A stretch of DNA of 31,322 nucleotides from a virus. Position numbers and translations under genes: made by a program. The stretch covers positions 1-31,322 of IMG/VR virus record IMGVR_UViG_3300034012_001634. One strand, 5' to 3'. The notes beneath the pieces are model-generated. The model was given only the letters and a program-made list of their open reading frames with translations. It was not told the DNA's origin and ran no database searches. This document shows positions 9,350-25,942 of the stretch, one piece after another (the first letter of the stretch is position 1; the number at the start of each line of letters is the position of its first letter).

Positions 9350-9586
9350 CTAGGTCTCCGGTGGGTTTAACGGTGTGCGATATAGACGCTGGAAGAGCGA
9401 CTGCCAGGTCTCGGCGGGTTTTCCTTTGCGCTTGCCTGCGATCGAGAGCGCGCGCTGCTGCTCGAGGATCGCGGTGCGAATCTTTTCGCGGCGCTGCTCG
9501 GCGGTTGTGACGCCGGAGTCCCAATCGAGCGACATCCCAAGGCGTCGCGCCATCCAGGCTTCGGTGATCAGATCCGCGAGTCTCAC
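9350..9586 (-). CDS. Small replication-operon protein, unknown
   Basis: 78 residues from GTG 9586 (GTGA overlap with the end of the helicase-loader-like gene). It contains LADLITEAWMARRLGMSLDWD and a long basic helix EQRREKIRTAILEQQRAL, ending in WQSLFQRLYRTPLNP. Upstream extension of the frame is Arg-rich shadow translation and is excluded. No family is recognised. Coupling to the replication genes suggests an accessory role. Confidence 0.65.
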   Translation of the reverse strand: MRLADLITEAWMARRLGMSLDWDSGVTTAEQRREKIRTAILEQQRALSIAGKRKGKPAETWQSLFQRLYRTPLNPPET

Positions 9587-10077
9587 TTGCCGATCGCTTC
9601 GATCAGTCCGCGGACCGGGTTGTCCTGCGCGAGCTGCGGGAGTTCCTGGCGCGTCTCCGCGACGTCGGCCAGTTGGTCGTAGTGCGAAGCGAACCGCTTC
9701 TCCAGGAACGGGAGCGCATCGACGCTCGACCAGGCGATGATCTTCCATCCGCCGAGCGCCTGGACGGCGCGCTCGACTTCGGGAACGGCGGGTCCGGCGT
9801 GATAGGCGCCCGAGCGAACGTGCTGTAGCGCGATGGCCCACGCCTCGCCTGGTGTCATGCGCTGCGCTTTGCGGAGCTGCTGAAAATGCCAAGGGTTCGG
9901 GAAGTATTCCTCGTGGAGCATCAGGTGTTGCGCTGCCGCGCGAAACTCCTCGATCGACCAGGTACTCATCGCTGCGAACCAGAGCTCGAGCGCTTCCGGC
10001 GTGATCTTTCCGCCGGGTTTCATTTCGGCAAGCGAGACCAGGATGCGAGCCATTTCGGCGCGATCACCCGGCTGCAC
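9583..10077 (-). CDS. Putative helicase loader / G39P-like replication protein
   Basis: 164 residues from GTG 10077, preferred because GGAGAAGG lies 4-7 nt upstream; ATG 10053 is the alternative. The N-terminal 65 residues (ILVSLAEMKPGGKITPEALELWF and EEFRAAAQHLML, PNPWHF) resemble the G39P-type helical domain that contacts replicative helicases. The C-terminal part has PAVPEVERAVQALGGWK and SVDALPFLEKRFASHYDQL, a block common in phage replication accessory proteins placed after YdaU or O-type initiators. I infer that it brings the host DnaB helicase to the phage origin. No ATPase motif is present, so it is not a DnaC-type loader. Confidence 0.65.
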   Translation of the reverse strand: MQPGDRAEMARILVSLAEMKPGGKITPEALELWFAAMSTWSIEEFRAAAQHLMLHEEYFPNPWHFQQLRKAQRMTPGEAWAIALQHVRSGAYHAGPAVPEVERAVQALGGWKIIAWSSVDALPFLEKRFASHYDQLADVAETRQELPQLAQDNPVRGLIEAIGK

Positions 10078-10882
10078 TTGCCTTCTCCAGCCACGCCTGG
10101 GCTGCTGCGATGTTCGTGTCCTGGGCGCGCTTCGCCTTCGTCGGCGGGATCGGCCAGGGTTGCGACCAAGGACGATCGGGATCGCCAAAAAATCTCGCCG
10201 GGTTCAAGACCATCCGGTTCGTCGCCTGGACGTGAGCGGCGTATCGCTCGACGCCTTCGCGCAGATTCTCCCAGGACGCGCCGAGCTCGAGGTGCCTGCG
10301 GATGTGGTGCTCTGCGCTGATCCAGTCCGTGCGGCCTGCGTGGGGCGGGTATGCGCTCTTGATCGCGTCGAGGTGCTGCCGTTCTTCGCCTTCGGCGCGC
10401 GCGATTTTTGCCACCTCAAGCGAAGAGATTACACATGGGGAGTTAGATGTCGTTGGAGATATAGTCTGGTGTCTGGAGTCTGGTGTCTGGATAGGTTGAT
10501 CGTTCGTTGAACGATTCGTAGCACGAGTCGTGCTCGGCTCGTTGCCCTGGCGGTCAGCTCGTCGTCGCGCTTCTCGTTGCTCGGCGATGCGTCGATTCGT
10601 CTCTCGCTGCTCGTCCGCCTTCGCGATTTCGCGCTGGGCTCTCGAGTTAGTCCACCCACCCTCGCCCTGCTCCCAGAATTCCTCGAGGACGCGCTTCACG
10701 GCGTCTCGGTCGAGCTTCGAGACTGCGCCGACGATGCGGCAGAGCTGCGTCATGTCGGACGGGAGCGGACGCTCGGTCGCGTAGTGATGATCGAGGAGCG
10801 ACCTGTATGCGCCGCGCTCGGTTAGCGAGAGGTGCCCGGTGTCGCGTTGGAAGTCGCCGATGTAGTGCTTGTAGAAGTTCAC
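10064..10882 (-). CDS. YdaU/DUF1376-family replication protein
   Basis: 272 residues beginning MNFYKHYIGDFQRDTGHLSL, then TERGAYRSLLDHHYATERPLP, the DUF1376 winged-helix signature, with an AVKRVLEEFWEQ segment. A low-complexity Ser/Thr/Asn/Gln linker spans roughly residues 112-150, and the DNA coding for it carries direct repeats and palindromes, as in the lambda O gene. The C-terminal domain (TDWISAEHHIRRHLELGASW, VERYAAHVQ, RFFGDPDRPW) is typical of phage replication initiators. It would bind the origin embedded in its own gene. It starts by overlapping the Cro-like gene stop (ATGA). Confidence 0.88.
   Translation of the reverse strand: MNFYKHYIGDFQRDTGHLSLTERGAYRSLLDHHYATERPLPSDMTQLCRIVGAVSKLDRDAVKRVLEEFWEQGEGGWTNSRAQREIAKADEQRETNRRIAEQREARRRADRQGNEPSTTRATNRSTNDQPIQTPDSRHQTISPTTSNSPCVISSLEVAKIARAEGEERQHLDAIKSAYPPHAGRTDWISAEHHIRRHLELGASWENLREGVERYAAHVQATNRMVLNPARFFGDPDRPWSQPWPIPPTKAKRAQDTNIAAAQAWLEKASAAG
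10464..10534. repeat. Candidate replication origin: four heptamer iterons and two palindromes
   Basis: Inside the linker-coding part of the YdaU gene, the heptamers GTCTGGT and GTCTGGA alternate to give four perfect head-to-tail copies at 10464-10491 (the 14-mer GTCTGGTGTCTGGA twice). They are followed by palindrome ATCGTTC-GTT-GAACGAT (10499-10515) and palindrome AGCACGA-G-TCGTGCT (10520-10534). A more AT-rich run lies next to them at about 10420-10463. Iterons within an initiator gene are the lambda/P22 arrangement. Role as origin is inferred. Confidence 0.65.
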
Positions 10883-11146: not shown

Positions 11147-11174
11147 GTATTACCAAAAAGCCATTATTGTTCAA
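11147..11174 (-). promoter_or_regulatory. Leftward early promoter (PL-like)
   Basis: On the minus strand, TTGAAC (11174-11169) is followed after 16 nt by TAATAC (11152-11147). This is a near-consensus sigma70 promoter directed at the Cro-like gene. Its -10 is part of a GGTAATACTCC string that is repeated in the rightward promoter at 11971-11980, so both promoters probably answer to the same repressor. Confidence 0.75.
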
Positions 11175-11211
11175 TACCACACGGTAATTCACCTATAGGT
11201 GAACAATAATG
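11162..11211. promoter_or_regulatory. Symmetric operator region of the genetic switch
   Basis: A 12-bp inverted repeat, CATTATTGTTCA (11162-11173) and TGAACAATAATG (11200-11211), flanks two further dyads: TACC-ACAC-GGTA (11175-11186) and the perfect 16-bp palindrome TTCACCTATAGGTGAA (11188-11203). The TACC-N4-GGTA dyad recurs in the rightward promoter. The region covers the leftward -35 and the repressor start, so it is well placed for autoregulation by the repressor and Cro-like protein. Confidence 0.75.
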
Positions 11212-15451: not shown

Positions 15452-17047
15452 ATGAAAGCCATCGTATACGCCCGGTATTCGACCGAACATCAGACGGAAT
15501 CGACGATCCTCGATCAGCTCCGTCGGTGTCGGGACTACGCAAAAAATCACGGATTAAAGATCGCCGCCGAGTACACCGACGAGGGTATCTCCGGCGCTGC
15601 GATAGGGAATCGACCAGGCGTTCAGAAGGCGCTCGCCGAGCTCGAGCGAGGCGATGTTCTCCTGGTCGTTGATACAACCCGGCTCTCAAGGTCGCAGGAT
15701 CTCGCGCCGTTGCTCACCAGGCTACGGCATCGAGGCATCCGCGTCGTCGGCGTCCTGGACGGGTTCGACTCTGACAGTCGCACCGCCAGGATGCAGGCGG
15801 GTCTCTCCGGGATTATGTCCGAAGAGTTCCGCGCGCAGATTGCCTCGAGAACTCACTCGGCGCTCGATATGAGAGCGCGCCAGGGAAAGGCGACTGGCGG
15901 GAAGTGTTACGGGTACTCGAAGGCGGGAGAGATCATCGAGGCGGAGGCCTCGATCGTGCGCGAGGTTTTTGACCGCGCAGCTCGAGGTGAGGCAATGAAG
16001 GCGATCGTGTCGGATCTGAACCGACGCGGAGTGCCGTCACCGGGCTCGACCTGGGAGCGAAAGGCTCGCCGATCGGACGGTATGTGGCTCGTCTCGGCGA
16101 TTCACTCGATGCTCGGGAACGATCGCTACATTGGCCGGGTTGTGTGGAATCGCTCGATCTGGAAGCGAGACCCAGACACCGGCAAGCGTCAGCGCGTCGA
16201 GCGACCGGAGTCGGAATGGATCGTGACCGAAGGTCCGGCGATCGTTGAGCTCGAGACCTGGGAGAAGGTTCGCGCCCTGGCGACGCCGAGAAAGTTCCAC
16301 AATGGAACGAAAGGGCGCGGTCCGAAGTACATCCTCTCGGGGATTCTGGTCTGCGGGGAATGTGGCGGGAAGTTGGTCGCGACCGGCGCGAACGGTTCCT
16401 GGTACTACTGCGGCACCCGGCACCAGGGAGGCGACTCGGCCTGCTCGATGGCGATCGGCGCCAGGCGGGACGTTGCCGAGGAGAAGCTGCTCGAGCCAAT
16501 TACAAAACAGCTCCTCTCGAGCGACGCGGTCGAGCTGGCGGTCGCAATGATCCGCCAATGGCGGCGGGATGAACGCACGGAGTCGACGCGCCCGGCAGAG
16601 CTCGAGGAGCTTGATCGCCGGATTGCCAAGCTCGAGGCGCAAGTATCCCAAGGGATACTCGACCGGGAGGACATCGCGCCCTCGGTAGCCGCGCTCCTGG
16701 AGCGCCGTCGAGCCCTGCTGGCGAAGTCCTGGCGGAAGGCGAACTCGAGGTCGAACGTCGACCAGGCGGTCGCCGAGGAGGCGTATCGGCAGGCGGTCGC
16801 GAATATGCGAGAGGCTTTGCAGGGACCGGCGGCTCGAGCTCGAGCTGCGGTTCACGAGCTGCTCGGGGACGTTGTGTGCCGTCCCGAGGCTGGAGTCCTG
16901 GTCGCTGCTGTCGCTGTGAATACCGCGCCGCTCATGCGAGCGGCGGGTGTTTCACAGAATGGTAGCGGGGGCTCGCTTCCTTATTATGAAATGGTACCAC
17001 TTGTTCGAGGCGGTCCGCCGTTATTTTCCAAGCTGCTCGCGGCCTAG
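15452..17047 (+). CDS. Large serine recombinase (integrase)
   Basis: 531 residues, ATG preceded by AAGGTGACAGG. The resolvase catalytic domain (1-145) has the nucleophile Ser10 in YARYSTEHQT and the DTTRLSRSQ arginine motif. The recombinase domain follows (GGKCYGYSKAGEIIEAEASI, AIHSMLGNDRYIGRVVWNR). A zinc ribbon is visible as LVCGECGGKL and YYCGTRHQGGDSAC, and a coiled-coil region (ELEELDRRIAKLEAQV) follows. This is the site-specific integrase that makes the phage temperate. The last 27 bp overlap the spanin gene on the opposite strand. The final 25 residues look unlike the family and may be att-derived. Confidence 0.96.
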   Translation: MKAIVYARYSTEHQTESTILDQLRRCRDYAKNHGLKIAAEYTDEGISGAAIGNRPGVQKALAELERGDVLLVVDTTRLSRSQDLAPLLTRLRHRGIRVVGVLDGFDSDSRTARMQAGLSGIMSEEFRAQIASRTHSALDMRARQGKATGGKCYGYSKAGEIIEAEASIVREVFDRAARGEAMKAIVSDLNRRGVPSPGSTWERKARRSDGMWLVSAIHSMLGNDRYIGRVVWNRSIWKRDPDTGKRQRVERPESEWIVTEGPAIVELETWEKVRALATPRKFHNGTKGRGPKYILSGILVCGECGGKLVATGANGSWYYCGTRHQGGDSACSMAIGARRDVAEEKLLEPITKQLLSSDAVELAVAMIRQWRRDERTESTRPAELEELDRRIAKLEAQVSQGILDREDIAPSVAALLERRRALLAKSWRKANSRSNVDQAVAEEAYRQAVANMREALQGPAARARAAVHELLGDVVCRPEAGVLVAAVAVNTAPLMRAAGVSQNGSGGSLPYYEMVPLVRGGPPLFSKLLAA

Positions 17048-20260: not shown

Positions 20261-23200
20261 CTATTCCTCGACACTCACAATGGACACCCTCTGGCTGTTG
20301 TTGCCAGAGCTGAACTGAATCGACCGCGCCGTGATTGCGGCGCGATAGGTGCGATCCGAAAGGCTCGCGTCGTTGTCGGTGTAACTCGCCGAGCCGCTCA
20401 TGTTTTGAGTCCAGATTCGCGCGTAGAGATTGCCCGGATACGGCTCGCTGTCGGTCTCATAAGACCAGCTCCCTGTGACGTTTAGGGTTGCAACCTCGGT
20501 CTCTGCTCCGCTGCCGATCTTTCGGTAGAGCTTGACCGTTGCCGAGATTGAGCCGCTCCCGGTGCCAGTCGACGAGCCTTGCATTTGCGTCCAGTTCCCG
20601 CTGTACGCATAGCTGACCGTGACGACCTTCGGGTCGCCATTGGTGCCGAACGGACCGACGGTGATCTGTGCAGTCGCCGAGAGGTCGCTCGTCTCCCCGC
20701 GGTTTGTAAGAGTGCCCGCCGAGAGTGTTCCGCCGAAATAGGCGGAGCCGTTTGTCTTGAGGTAGTAGGTCGCGTTCGCCTCGGTGCAGCTCGAGAGGCT
20801 TGCGAAGTACGGCCCGTACCATTCGATGAACTGCGAGGTGCTTCCGAACGGCGCGCCGGTGACCTTCATGTAGGAGCCGGTCGTCGTAATCGTGCGGCCG
20901 TTCGTGACGTCGACGCGGAAGCTGTCCGCGGAGTTGCGGATCGTGCCTGCGGTGAGCGTTCCGATGTTTGCCGTGATGCTCGAGAGATCGGAGACGCTGA
21001 TCTTTCCGGCCGTGACCGCTCCCGCGAAGATCTTGTCGGTAGTGACGGCGCCTGCAAAAATCTTCGCAGTCGTGACTGCCTCGTCGCTGATTTGCGTAGA
21101 GATGATCTGCCCGGTGAGATCATCGGTCGGAACCGCCGTCGTCCAGGCGGAGCCGGTGTAGCGGTAGAGCTTCGAGTTCGTCGTCAGGAATACCATCCGC
21201 CCGGCGAATAGGCTCGTCGAAGGAAGCGCGCTGACGATCTCGTAGCCGATTTTATTCTTTGCGACCGTAAAGACCGCGGTATAGGTGACGCCGTTGTAGA
21301 CCGCAGAGAGCGTCAGAGTGCCGACGTCGACCGAGAGAGCCGTGATGCGGTAGTAGCCCTTCGCCTGTCCCGAGACAGGAGTGTTTGTCGCCGTATTGAT
21401 TGTGCCGGTGACGCCCGAGCCCGCGGTCGCCGAGAGGGTCGCGGAGGCCGTGACGTCTGTCGACCCCTGGTAGACCTTGAGCGTACCGTCTGCGCCCGAG
21501 AAGCTCGGGACCGAGCCGTCTGCATAGGCGAGAATCTGGAAAGCGCTTTTCGAGATCTGAATGTTGACCGCGTCCGCGCCGTTCGTACCGTTTGTACCGT
21601 TCGTGCCGTTCGTGCCGTTGGCGCCGTCCTGCGCGAGGAGGCTCGCTGCCGCCCATTCGCCCGAGGCGATTGAGTCGGTGCTGCTCGAGCTGATGGCGGT
21701 TGCGGTTGTGACCCACCGATAGGCGCCGCCCGTTGTCGGCATGGTTTGAGACCATCCGTTATTCACGCCACTCGCGACGCCTGTCGCAAAGGTGTAGGTC
21801 ACGGTCGCCGAAGGCAGAGACGGTGCGCTCGAGCTCGCGGTCCGCTGGAACAGATAGATCGTCGCGGAATTTAACCCGTCGGCGCCATTCGTCCCGTTGG
21901 TTCCGTTCGTACCGTTTGTGCCGTTGCTTCCGTTCGCACCGTTTTGAACGAGGACGACCGGGCTCGCCCACTCGCCCGCGGCAATCGTGTCCGTTGCGGT
22001 ATTCGAGCTTGCAGTCGCCGCGCTGACATAGAGCGGATCGGTCCCTGCCGGGATCGTGGCGCTCCATCCGTTCGTGAGGCCGCTGATCGCACCCGTCGAA
22101 AAGGTGTAAGTCACGCTTGAGGATGGAAGAGCCGGGCTCGATGTGCCTCGCTGATAAATGTAGATCACGGCGCCGTTCAGACCGGCGACGCCCTGCCCTC
22201 CGTCCTGGGAAACCAGAGACGGCGAGCTCCATTCGCTATTCGCGATCGAATCCGTGCTCGAGCTCGAGGCCGCTGTCGCCTGGATCGCCCAAAGGTAGCC
22301 GCCGCCCGAGGACGGGATTGCGCGCGTCCATCCGCTAGGCTGGCCGCTGACCGTGCCGCTCGAGAAGGTGTAGGTCGTCGTCCCTGCGGTCGCGACGCTG
22401 GGAGCGGAGCTGCTCGAGGTGCGCTGATATAGGAACACGGTCGCGGTGTTGAGCCCGTCGATGCCGTTGCTGCCGTTGCTGCCGTTGGCGCCATTCTGCG
22501 CGAGCAGTACCGGCGAGCCCCACTCGTTCGAGGCGATGGTGTCGGTCGAGCTGGAGGAGACCGCCGAGGCGACGATCACATAAAGAGGATCGGTGCCGGA
22601 CGGGATCGACTTCGACCATCCATTCGAGAGCGTTGCCGTCGTGATCGTGCCGGTCGTGAAATCGAAGGTGACGGCGCCCGGATTGTCGCCAGGCGCCGAC
22701 GCGGCTCGCTTGTAGGCGTAGACCTGGGCGACGTTGTTGCCGTTGGTGCCGTTTGTTCCGTTCGTCCCGTTGGTGCCTGCGTTACCCTGCCGCGCCTTCG
22801 TGACCGAGAACACCTTGTCGATCGAGTAGCTCCCGGCGTAAGTCGCGCGGAAGGCGACCGAGCCGGTATCGGCGGACATCGCGCTCACAGAGTACGCGCC
22901 GCTCGAGGCGTTGATCGAGGCGGTGACGTTGGTCTGTCCCAGGATCGAGAACGTGCAGGAGCTCGTGACGTCGGTCGTGCCGACGAAGACCTTAAAGTCA
23001 CCGACCGCAGTCGCAAATGAGCTAACAGTCCCGGCGGAATCTGCCGGTACGGTGACCGCTTCGTTCGTAAGGTAACCGACCAGGGTCGGCGGTTTCGCGG
23101 CGATTGTCACCGAGCTCGAGGTCGAGTTCGGATACCAGTCCGAGCGAACGCGAGCGCGGCGAGTCCTGATCCAGTAGTAGCGGGCGGAGGTGTCGTTCGT

Positions 23201-25942
23201 GACGTGCTGAAAGTCGGACGCGCGACCGTCGAAGATCTTCGTCGCGGTTCCGCGATCGTTCGCGATTGAGGCGTAGAGCTCGACCGAGTCATAGGAGGCG
23301 GGATCGTTCGGGAGCGTCCAGGCGATAAGCGCAAAGCCATCCTGGGCGCTTGCGGTGAGGACGCCGATCGCAGGAGGCTTGCTGTCCTGGTCGGCCGTTG
23401 CGGTCTCCGGTGCCGGGACGAATTGGATGCGAAGGCACGAGCCCGCGAGGGATCGCTCGGAGATTACTGCGGGGTCGGCATAGCCCGCCCAGGGGTCATA
23501 GTTGTCGTCGTATCTTTTGAGCCCCTCGTTATCGAGGAACGTCAGGAAGCCGAGATAGGGCTGCGCGATCGGGACCGCGCCGGTGTTCGCGACGAATCGG
23601 TTTGTGAGATCCGGTGCCGAAACGGCCGAGCCATCGAGGAGCAGGAGCATCGAACCCGGACCGCCCGCGCCACCGGCGCCGGGATAGTATTTGTTCGGGT
23701 TCGCGTTGTGCATCGGCGGCATGACCGACGAGTTGCCGGACAAGTTGATCGTCGCCGACGCGCCGGTCGAAAACCCGCGCGATACTGTGCAGAGGCCCGC
23801 GCCTCCTGCGGCGCCTGTACCGCCAGCGGCGCGAAAATCTACTTTGTTTCCGCTCAAAATGCTGCCGCCAGGACCGCCGCCTGTACCGCGCAGATCAGTC
23901 GGGATTCCGGTCAGAGCGTTTCCCGAGACTTGTAGTTGGAGGTACGGGAAGCTCGCGTGTTTCCCTTGCGTGACGGGAACCGGGAGTGTGAGGAGCTTCG
24001 GGTTGCCTGACTTGTAGGCCGCGTGTGCGTCGATCCCGTCCCACCCGCGCGAGTTTCCGACCCAGCCCGGATTGCCGAGTGTGCTGGTTTGCGGGTTGTT
24101 GTCGTCCGCGACGCCGGGCAATCCGCCGCCGGTGCCGTTGATCGTTCCGTTGATCGTGAGGTAGCCCTTCACGCGGAGCTGCACGTTCCCGCTGACATTG
24201 ATCGTGCACCCTTGCGGGATCGTGAGGTCGCCGTTGTGATACCAGATCGAACCCGCGGCCGTCATGTCGGCGCCGCCTGCGAGCGAATAGGTTCCGACAG
24301 CCATCACGCCTGCGGTGATCGTTGCGACGCTCGAGAGCGGCGTTCCGGTTGCGGTGTAGAAGGCGTCCGGGAGTGCGGTCGTCGCCGTCGTCGGCGAGAG
24401 CGCGGAGGCCGGAGAGGTCGAGCCGAAGAGCTCGAGCTGCACCTGGCCGGTGCGGTGATTGACGGAGATATTTTGGATCTCGAACGCGCGGTCGATGCTC
24501 GAGCCAGTCCCGGAGAAGTCGCGGACGCTCGCGAACTTCACGCGGACGACGTCACCGACCTCGAGCTTGTTCAGCGAATGGACGACCGTGACGGACATCC
24601 GCTCGGGCGGTGAGGCGTAGCGATCACGCAGAGAATCGACAAGCTGAAAGAGCAGCGAGTCGGTCGCGCGTCCGCCGTAGAGTCCCTTGAACTTGAGATC
24701 GAGAGGGTCCGCACGGCCGTGAATAGCGACGGACGTCGCGTCGATCAGCGAGGTCGTGCGGGAGTAGTCGGAGCCGGTCCAGTTCCAGGAGATGCGGAAG
24801 ACATTGTGGACGTCTTCCATGTCGTGCGTGAGCTCGCCGACCTGGATCGAGTTCGATTCGTCGAGCGTTGCGACGGTTCCCGCGTCCGATAGAACGCGCG
24901 CCGCTCGCTTGAGCCCGAGCGCGCCGTCGGCATAGACCGGCATGAACATCCCGAGCAGGCGACAGATTTCCTCCTCGAGGAACTTCTTGCCGTCGGTTTT
25001 CTTTAGACCTTCAAATCGAACGATGACGCCTTGGTCCGCGCCGTCCCATATATCCGAGCCGATGCCGGTGTAGTCCGCGAGACGGATCAGAGCCGCGCTG
25101 ATTCCGAGATGCCAGGTCGACGGGAGAGTTGCGTTGTCGCCGTAGAGAGTGCCGGTGAGGATGGCATAGGCGAGCTTGACGGCCGGGAGCTCGAGGTAGA
25201 CGTGCTCCGAGACCTTCTCGCGACGCGCGGATGGTGTTGCGGCGTCGACGTCGTACTTGCTCGCGATCGTCCCGAGGACGCCACGAGTGCACCCGGTGAA
25301 AGTTGTCGCGGTCTTGCCGGTGTAGCGGATGACCTCGTCGCGGATCTTGATGTAGCCGACGGTCGAGTTCGCGGCGTCCGAATAGCTGGAGCCGTGATAC
25401 ACAGTCGCGAAGCCGCTCGTCGAGCTGACGTAGACGGTCGTGTCCGTCGCGCTTAAAGACTGCGCGAGGGTTGTCTCGGCAAGCGAAAAGATGTCCTTCT
25501 TTGCGGAGCGCTGAACGTCCGCGCAGGAGATCGAGTAGCGCCCGCGGTCGTAGGCCGCCTGGGTGACCTGTTGCGTTCCGACCATGACGAAGTCGTTGAA
25601 CGAGAGCCCGGCGTAGCCCAGGTAGAAGCGCACCTGGCGCTGACGGAGACCGACGTCATCGTTGAGTCGTTCGCGGATCTCTGTCGTGAACTCCGCACCG
25701 ACGTCGACGACGGAGAACGATGCGGAGCCGATCTCGCTGCGGCCCTCGATCGGGTTCAATCGCTGCGAGACGATGGACGGTTCCTGGAGCGCGCCTTGCA
25801 GGACGGTTCCAGGCACGTCGGCGATACCGCTGTGCGAGGTGATGTAGATCGAATCGACGGGGTACTCGATCTTGACTACGAACCGCGGCTCTTTAACCGA
25901 GGACGTATTGAGTACGTTGAAGACTTCGCCGTCGGTACGCAT
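20261..25942 (-). CDS. Central tail fibre / tail-tip hub protein with repeated modules
   Basis: 1893 residues. Residues 1 to about 515 look like a tail-hub domain (KIEYPVDSIYITSHSGIADV, VEDVHN-type segments, DVVRVKFASVRDFS). Residues about 560-830 are Gly/Asn-rich beta repeats, about 850-950 is a fibronectin-III-like domain (FALIAWTLPNDPASYDSVEL), and about 960-1050 an Ig-like stretch. Then four modules of 80-95 residues (YLFQRT ... VTYTF ... NGWS ... SSTDSIA ... EW) are separated by collagen-like (TNG)n blocks near 1051-1071, 1148-1162, 1247-1254, 1331-1356 and 1437-1458. The C-terminus (about 1600-1700) has TTAKIFAGAVTTDKIFAGAV, as in J-like host-specificity proteins. It is expected to form the receptor-binding tail tip. 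Confidence 0.9.
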   Translation of the reverse strand: MRTDGEVFNVLNTSSVKEPRFVVKIEYPVDSIYITSHSGIADVPGTVLQGALQEPSIVSQRLNPIEGRSEIGSASFSVVDVGAEFTTEIRERLNDDVGLRQRQVRFYLGYAGLSFNDFVMVGTQQVTQAAYDRGRYSISCADVQRSAKKDIFSLAETTLAQSLSATDTTVYVSSTSGFATVYHGSSYSDAANSTVGYIKIRDEVIRYTGKTATTFTGCTRGVLGTIASKYDVDAATPSARREKVSEHVYLELPAVKLAYAILTGTLYGDNATLPSTWHLGISAALIRLADYTGIGSDIWDGADQGVIVRFEGLKKTDGKKFLEEEICRLLGMFMPVYADGALGLKRAARVLSDAGTVATLDESNSIQVGELTHDMEDVHNVFRISWNWTGSDYSRTTSLIDATSVAIHGRADPLDLKFKGLYGGRATDSLLFQLVDSLRDRYASPPERMSVTVVHSLNKLEVGDVVRVKFASVRDFSGTGSSIDRAFEIQNISVNHRTGQVQLELFGSTSPASALSPTTATTALPDAFYTATGTPLSSVATITAGVMAVGTYSLAGGADMTAAGSIWYHNGDLTIPQGCTINVSGNVQLRVKGYLTINGTINGTGGGLPGVADDNNPQTSTLGNPGWVGNSRGWDGIDAHAAYKSGNPKLLTLPVPVTQGKHASFPYLQLQVSGNALTGIPTDLRGTGGGPGGSILSGNKVDFRAAGGTGAAGGAGLCTVSRGFSTGASATINLSGNSSVMPPMHNANPNKYYPGAGGAGGPGSMLLLLDGSAVSAPDLTNRFVANTGAVPIAQPYLGFLTFLDNEGLKRYDDNYDPWAGYADPAVISERSLAGSCLRIQFVPAPETATADQDSKPPAIGVLTASAQDGFALIAWTLPNDPASYDSVELYASIANDRGTATKIFDGRASDFQHVTNDTSARYYWIRTRRARVRSDWYPNSTSSSVTIAAKPPTLVGYLTNEAVTVPADSAGTVSSFATAVGDFKVFVGTTDVTSSCTFSILGQTNVTASINASSGAYSVSAMSADTGSVAFRATYAGSYSIDKVFSVTKARQGNAGTNGTNGTNGTNGNNVAQVYAYKRAASAPGDNPGAVTFDFTTGTITTATLSNGWSKSIPSGTDPLYVIVASAVSSSSTDTIASNEWGSPVLLAQNGANGSNGSNGIDGLNTATVFLYQRTSSSSAPSVATAGTTTYTFSSGTVSGQPSGWTRAIPSSGGGYLWAIQATAASSSSTDSIANSEWSSPSLVSQDGGQGVAGLNGAVIYIYQRGTSSPALPSSSVTYTFSTGAISGLTNGWSATIPAGTDPLYVSAATASSNTATDTIAAGEWASPVVLVQNGANGSNGTNGTNGTNGTNGADGLNSATIYLFQRTASSSAPSLPSATVTYTFATGVASGVNNGWSQTMPTTGGAYRWVTTATAISSSSTDSIASGEWAAASLLAQDGANGTNGTNGTNGTNGADAVNIQISKSAFQILAYADGSVPSFSGADGTLKVYQGSTDVTASATLSATAGSGVTGTINTATNTPVSGQAKGYYRITALSVDVGTLTLSAVYNGVTYTAVFTVAKNKIGYEIVSALPSTSLFAGRMVFLTTNSKLYRYTGSAWTTAVPTDDLTGQIISTQISDEAVTTAKIFAGAVTTDKIFAGAVTAGKISVSDLSSITANIGTLTAGTIRNSADSFRVDVTNGRTITTTGSYMKVTGAPFGSTSQFIEWYGPYFASLSSCTEANATYYLKTNGSAYFGGTLSAGTLTNRGETSDLSATAQITVGPFGTNGDPKVVTVSYAYSGNWTQMQGSSTGTGSGSISATVKLYRKIGSGAETEVATLNVTGSWSYETDSEPYPGNLYARIWTQNMSGSASYTDNDASLSDRTYRAAITARSIQFSSGNNSQRVSIVSVEE

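Follow-up and report, generated by a model that had tools for sequence, protein, structure and literature searches.

The question raised by this locus is whether a phage carries its replication origin inside the gene of its own putative initiator and, if so, which part of it would be bound and which would be unwound. The locus lies in a viral DNA stretch of 31,322 nt (IMG/VR record IMGVR_UViG_3300034012_001634, positions 1–31,322), hereafter referred to as the window, where tandem heptamers and palindromes are found within a DUF1376/YdaU-type gene. An earlier note on this DNA had read the heptamers as iterons of a probable origin in the lambda O arrangement. From its genes, the window seems to derive from a temperate phage whose head is of HK97 type. 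It contains a large serine recombinase of the integrase type (15452–17047), accompanied nearby by genes for RecT-like and YqaJ-like proteins and for an S24 repressor. The YdaS-like gene and the S24 repressor gene are divergent, and in the space separating them a perfect 12-bp inverted repeat (CATTATTGTTCA/TGAACAATAATG; 11162–11211) was found, which is likely an operator. Besides, several arrays of 9-nt repeats (21571–22777) were present in a 1893-aa ORF on the minus strand (20261–25942) without a Pfam match.

The YdaU-type protein of the window was found to cover the complete DUF1376 profile (1–86 of 86) with a score of 101.7 bits compared to a Pfam gathering cut-off of 30.1. PF07120 was the only Pfam family detected at E-values up to 0.01, and no lambda O-type family was matched at this level. 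PHROG families annotated as replication initiation protein showed weak matches (E 0.0033 and 0.0044). The predicted model consists of helices and a short hairpin followed by a disordered linker (Table 1), and the predicted fold of the DUF1376 domain was read as a winged helix. A PDB sequence search with the protein gave no convincing match, and a Foldseek search gave no match at E 0.001 or better. With VIA-align, general winged helices were obtained at a best Z of 6.3, including ORC2 and plasmid initiators at Z 5–6, none of them prominent. The gene downstream, with a DUF6475 match that falls below the Pfam cut-off, is a candidate for a helicase-loading partner. Among the relatives, 74 of 92 downstream ORFs were scanned, and the next gene was predicted to encode a P-like loader in 13/74, a DnaB-like helicase in 9–10/74, a protein of DUF6475 or phrog_10105 type in 8–10/74, and a methyltransferase in a few.

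The four exact head-to-tail copies of GTCTGGW reported previously were all recovered on the plus strand (starting at 10464, 10471, 10478, and 10485), and the whole element was confirmed to lie within the linker codons of the gene. The two palindromes showed the arms of 7 bp and the loops of 3 and 1 nt described for them, and both were shown to be perfect rather than near-perfect. The order given earlier, heptamers and then palindromes, is that of the plus strand; in the orientation of the gene the palindromes come first and the heptamers second. ACGAATCGT is spaced 12 bp from ACGACTCGT, which is the core of palindrome 2, and the type of palindrome 2 (GCACGANTCGTGC) was found again in relatives. 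As the 7-nt unit is out of step with the codon period, successive copies of the same letters shift through all three frames.

Table 1. Positions in the window of the DUF1376 gene, its neighbor, and the parts of the repeat element.
Feature	Position	Strand	Remarks
DUF1376/YdaU-type gene, 272 aa, GTG start	10064..10882	-	Matches PHROG 'primosomal protein' families
DUF1376 domain, residues 2–87 matched	10622..10882	-	PF07120, 2.9e-29
Predicted disordered linker, codons 117–163, holding the whole element	10394..10534	-	pLDDT <50
Palindrome 2, AGCACGACTCGTGCT, perfect, arms 7 bp, loop 1	10520..10534	.	
ACGAATCGT, arms 4 bp, loop 1, overlapping palindrome 1	10511..10519	.	Alone not significant
Palindrome 1, perfect, arms 7 bp, loop 3	10499..10515	.	
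Junction from palindrome 1 to first CCA	10491..10498	-	Coding-strand letters CAACCTAT
Four tandem heptamers, CCAGACA/CCAGACT/CCAGACA/CCAGACT	10463..10490	- (coding strand)	Codons 131–140 of the DUF1376 gene
AT-richer stretch directly after the heptamers, candidate part of unwinding region	10431..10462	.	GC 0.45 in 20-nt windows (gene 0.63)
Downstream gene, DUF6475/phrog_10105 type	9583..10053	-	ATG at 10053 read from sequence; listed ORF starts at 10188

Three CCA at a spacing of 7 nt occurred twice in the window, both times in this array, compared to an expected number of 0.07, and no (CCAGACW)x4 was obtained when the gene was shuffled 20,000 times among synonymous codons. The palindrome core ACGANTCGT was not above chance within the window (2 found vs. 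1.42 expected), and since the core alone is not significant there, the case for the palindromes rests on the relatives. The GC content was 0.40 before and 0.45 after the array (20-nt windows) compared to 0.63 for the gene; the array itself is hardly AT-rich, its first 20 nt having a GC content of 0.60. A search of the window for perfect matches to the DnaA box TTWTNCACA gave none, with 0.27 expected.

A set of DUF1376 genes gathered by protein was used for comparison, consisting of the best 80 loci from each of two domain searches rather than a random sample. The 159 loci were reduced to 154 by dropping five with less than 300 nt after the domain, and to 101 by dropping 53 redundant ones. Within 420 nt after the domain, these 101 genes contained 334 pairs of CCA at a lag of 7 nt, whereas 100 rounds of synonymous shuffles gave a mean of 70 and a maximum of 86. 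Pairs at other lags numbered 13 at 5, 65 at 6, 9 at 8, and 14 at 9 nt (9–65 over lags 3–6 and 8–13). At least two lag-7 pairs were present in 85/101 genes (shuffle mean 16, maximum 23), and a run of three or more CCA at 7 nt in 83/101 (mean 10.6, maximum 18). The number of genes with a run of three is the appropriate measure, as a single pair, found in 92/101 genes, means little when the shuffles give one in a mean of 44 genes (maximum 53). The excess was located in the linker, with 326 pairs in 30.3 kb compared to 6 in 26.9 kb of domain, and no lag-7 excess was seen in the flanks or on the other strand (5 for TGG). Eight of the 101 genes did not contain even two CCA at 7-nt spacing; inspection by eye showed CCA at period 6 in five of these, other units at 7–8 nt in two (L428 and L292), and nothing evident in one. 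A CCA array of period 6 was observed in L331, L343, L372, L378, and L422, where it is translated into in-frame repeats, e.g., TPTPTP or HSHSHS.

Common units were CCAGACA, CCATAAA, CCAATAA, CCAAGAA, CCATTAA, and CCAGACT, present in 2–9 copies. The arrays were 82% A+C on the coding strand, which is partly by definition, and the four free positions of the heptamer were approximately 70% A+C compared to 55% in the genes. In 93 arrays the first CCA was preceded by the consensus CTAA (C 0.77 at -4, T 0.75 at -3, A 0.84 at -2, and A 0.75 at -1), and across the family the GC content at the array and its flanks was 7–8 points under the gene average. These sequence comparisons showed that a one-stranded CCAnnnn array after the domain is present in most sampled DUF1376 genes and is constrained at the DNA level, not by the peptide alone. 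The element noted earlier is real, and it is a common property of the sampled genes rather than a peculiarity of this phage.

Two scans of viral contigs that were blind to protein gave the same location. Using CCAGACWCCAGACWCCA as query, at least 120 arrays were found; of the CCAGACW arrays listed, 102/120 fell within DUF1376 ORFs, in coding-strand orientation and 92–281 nt past the domain. In the stored stretches of the other 18 loci, neither strand gave a DUF1376 hit; at least three of these loci (L037, L057, and L120) contain a DUF1376 gene truncated where the stored stretch ends, as shown by contig names or lengths that coincide with those of gene-bearing loci. An AT-rich version of the query, repeated ACCANNA, gave at least 121 arrays, of which 109/121 listed were in DUF1376 ORFs, again on the coding strand and 81–360 nt past the domain. 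Of the remaining 12 loci, without a DUF1376 hit on either strand of the stored stretch, five (L548, L583, L593, L604, and L635) were judged by eye to be DUF1376 tails cut by the contig end and the rest to be unrelated repeats. The listed arrays with a full domain represent 79 non-redundant genes of 101 (first scan) and 96 of 107 (second scan). A tie of the AT-rich arrays to other initiators was rejected on the 109/121 listed arrays in DUF1376 ORFs, and a simple microsatellite was rejected because divergent phages agree in the gene, the strand, and the place of the array. When a genome collection was searched with the 17-mer of the first scan, 3/126 listed arrays were in DUF1376 ORFs as detected with a narrow HMM; outside viral contigs, most 17-mer copies among the matches listed lie elsewhere than in DUF1376 ORFs.

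Within the clade of the window, ten sequences were aligned after removal of L012 and of copies identical to kept rows. Third codon positions varied at 1/10 positions inside the array compared to 165/261 aligned codons outside (Fisher 0.001, with relatedness ignored and L012 excluded). Just two array positions were variable, both at position 7 of the heptamer, and one of these changes His/Leu. In L012, which is 77% identical to the window protein, a CATAGC array of period 6 is found where the heptamers would be; when L012 was added back, 8/10 third positions of the array varied and the clade test failed. The sequence of L012 shows that the array is replaceable, in this case by another CCA array of period 6. 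L019, L022, and L026 have kept the CCAGAC units beside unrelated C-terminal parts. Loss of the repeats from homologues that keep the linker, named in the earlier note as evidence against an origin, was looked for: most homologues keep the 7-nt CCA array, with exceptions, of which L012 is the close one. Across homologues, the linker peptide, the palindrome type, and the C-terminal part change while the array mostly stays.

Perfect palindromes, defined by an arm of at least 5 and a loop of at most 3, were enriched upstream of the arrays: 101 were found at -60 to -5 compared to a shuffle maximum of 28. At least one was present between -110 and -5 in 59/93 arrays, and the other 34/93 arrays had no perfect palindrome with an arm of at least 5 within 110 nt upstream. 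Inverted repeats were also more frequent in the 80 nt after the array (188 vs. a shuffle maximum of 121). The palindrome types, which include TGCGAACGCA, AACCCA-TGGGTT, AACCGAATCGGTT, ACGAnTCGT, GTCACGCGTGAC, and AACGnnCGTT, differ in sequence between phage groups, and both heptamer flavors were seen with four of the six named types. Across a tree built from 212 typed domains, 10 changes of heptamer flavor (shuffled minimum 68) and 39 of palindrome type (shuffled minimum 119) were counted. The latter is a rough figure because the types are regular expressions of our own making and 72/284 unique domains were classified as 'other', several of them visibly near a named type. Domain pairs with 60–70% identity shared the palindrome type in 56% and the flavor in 86% of cases. 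Some alignment columns of the domain followed the palindrome type in a comparison uncorrected for relatedness, and they carry no weight here. Soon after the array, C-rich runs followed by a G run able to pair with them were observed in L026, L103, L385, and L396, and a similar stretch is present in E. coli ydaU; such pairs are a possible third part of the origin.

Twelve DUF1376 genes were fetched from named phages, and a strict run of at least three was found in six: Xanthomonas Rb1, Methylophilaceae P19250A, and Moraxella Mcat18 (4 each), Acinetobacter MD-2021a (6), and Thalassomonas BA3 and Vibrio 1.183.O (7 each). The other six showed two CCA only, i.e., Bordetella IFTN2 (mostly period 6), IME-Ap7, AbTJ, Seahorse, ctTUS972, and phPA-G, and in AbTJ and ctTUS972 a strict run is present elsewhere, outside the DUF1376 gene. 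In Vibrio phage 1.183.O, part of the linker repeats (L277, 1861–1890) was annotated by the depositor as a CRISPR spacer, a label that may be a mis-call caused by these repeats. The GC-skew minimum was located within approximately 6% of genome length of the gene in 5/6 named phages (IME-Ap7, Seahorse, BA3, ctTUS972, and AbTJ), P19250A did not follow this pattern, and the distance in the window fragment was 10%; these positions carry little weight, since GC skew is confounded by divergent transcription nearby.

We consider the element to be probably a two-part replication origin inside the phage's own putative DUF1376 initiator gene. Comparison with the relatives gives good support to the lambda O-like layout and the probable origin proposed earlier. 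The assignment of the iterons to the heptamers made there may be wrong, because by position the palindromes match the iterons of lambda and the heptamers its AT-rich tract as described in PMC7466680. By this analogy, unwinding may be the role of the heptamers. The DUF1376 domain, interpreted as a winged helix, would bind the group-specific palindromes as double-stranded DNA, and the complex would melt the neighboring heptamer tract. Protomers, or a partner encoded next door, could hold the coding strand via one CCA per unit, and the replicative helicase would be loaded with help of the variable C-terminal part and the downstream loader or helicase. Confidence in an origin, and likewise the probability of the more specific reading that follows, is slightly lowered by L012, by the six named phages with short arrays, and by the non-random sample. 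A more specific reading, which we put forward tentatively, is a periodic strand-capture code shared by DUF1376 phages. Here, CCA units of 7, sometimes 6, nt would be held as single-stranded DNA, one per protomer, opening the origin in a DnaA-trio-like manner via an unrelated winged-helix initiator, and the palindromes would be swappable specificity cassettes, so that the identity of the origin changes and the unwinding code stays.

The same origin might work with the roles swapped, the heptamers being the double-stranded sites of the initiator and the palindromes being bound by another phage-specific protein or shaping the DNA. The heptamer core is common to domains that differ widely, which would be expected if it were read by the conserved DUF1376 domain, and the faster change of palindrome type than of flavor (39 vs. 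10 changes; 56 vs. 86% shared) also fits this reading. It is nevertheless somewhat doubtful, as the spacing of 7 nt (6 in some genes) lacks helical phasing, whereas 11–12 nt is favored by other linker repeats, and as the iterons of lambda are inverted repeats (PMC7466680). An element acting on the transcript, by antitermination, translation control, or RNA protection, and involving no origin, would explain why the array is strand-specific and, in every DUF1376 ORF that contains it, occurs on the coding strand. We regard it as unlikely given that the array adjoins palindromes varying between groups, that it sits in a replication gene, and that the lambda origin shows a similar order of parts, although none of these points is decisive.

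An operator, an autoregulatory site, or an anchor for recombination at the boundary across which C-terminal modules are exchanged is very improbable. The C-terminal parts of relatives differ completely soon after the array, as an anchor would predict, but no copy of the palindrome core is found in the window outside this element, not even in the divergent regulatory region, and an anchor needs neither a 7-nt period nor palindromes of many types. Selection on the linker peptide only, as low-complexity repeats binding a partner, was rejected on the shuffle comparisons of lag-7 pairs and runs of three, and we judge it to be very unlikely: the 334 pairs and the 83 genes with such runs far exceed the shuffle maxima of 86 and 18, and the encoded peptides are completely different (TPDSRHQT, NHKPLTN, TPTPTP, and HSHSHS). 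In its favor, the protein-fixed shuffles still show a lag-7 excess (mean 70 vs. 15–40 at most other lags) and at least one pair in 44/101 genes, and 76/93 arrays start in the same codon phase.

The earlier statement that the element was undescribed for a YdaU-type protein agrees with our search of the open-access literature, in which no description of repeats in DUF1376 genes was found. Lambda-like origins within genes are known; an array of CCA at 7 nt that most sampled DUF1376 genes share, beside palindromes that change, was not found in that literature. DUF1376 proteins recur in many phages under the label of a domain of unknown function. If the preferred reading of a two-part origin is true, CCA every 7 nt soon after the domain would mark the origin of replication in a large number of phages and prophages, and replication initiation would be suggested as the job of the DUF1376 family. 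The origin would then consist of two parts in which specificity, conferred by the palindromes, is separable from unwinding at the heptamers, and it would offer a case unrelated to DnaA for asking whether a short repeated strand-specific code opens origins.

Among known systems, the element is most readily compared to the origin of lambda (Lambdavirus and Stx phages), which, according to PMC7466680, lies in the middle of O, where iterons, each of inverted-repeat structure, precede an AT-rich tract bound by O as single-stranded DNA. In both cases the repeats are located mid initiator gene, between the putative DNA-binding domain and the C-terminal part. The order in lambda is inverted-repeat iterons, a base-asymmetric tract, and an inverted repeat (by eye), with gene P following, and the order in DUF1376 genes, read in gene orientation, of palindromes, heptamers, and an inverted repeat resembles it. 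The palindromic units of DUF1376 genes are short and approximately 12 bp apart, unlike the 18-bp iterons of lambda; the tract is a 7-nt CCA array, whereas lambda O has a single chance-like CCA pair; and the window protein, unlike lambda O, matches PF07120 alone in Pfam.

The Rac prophage of E. coli K-12, stated in PMC3945230 to have an active origin, oriJ, likewise contains a DUF1376 gene, ydaU, followed by ydaV for a putative ATP-binding protein. The linker of K-12 YdaU contains TGTTCAAACA palindromic repeats, a short array of period 6, and a C-rich inverted repeat and, unlike that of the window, no CCA run (longest 1). A CCA run of three was found in 0/80 E. coli-type loci (L440–L519), which are outside the protein-gathered set and were checked for CCA runs alone. 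Iteron plasmid origins also combine a winged-helix initiator, here by predicted fold, with direct repeats, and the initiators 4pt7, 4pta, and 5kbj were among the structural matches at Z 4.8–5.2, values that unrelated winged helices reached as well. In plasmids, the iterons are longer and mostly located outside the rep coding sequence. The DnaA-trio of oriC consists of short, regularly spaced, strand-specific units beside double-strand initiator sites. The DUF1376 array resembles it in having strand-specific periodic units beside putative double-strand sites, to which binding as single-stranded DNA would be added, and differs from it in a period of 7, sometimes 6, instead of 3 and in the lack of a perfect TTWTNCACA in the window.
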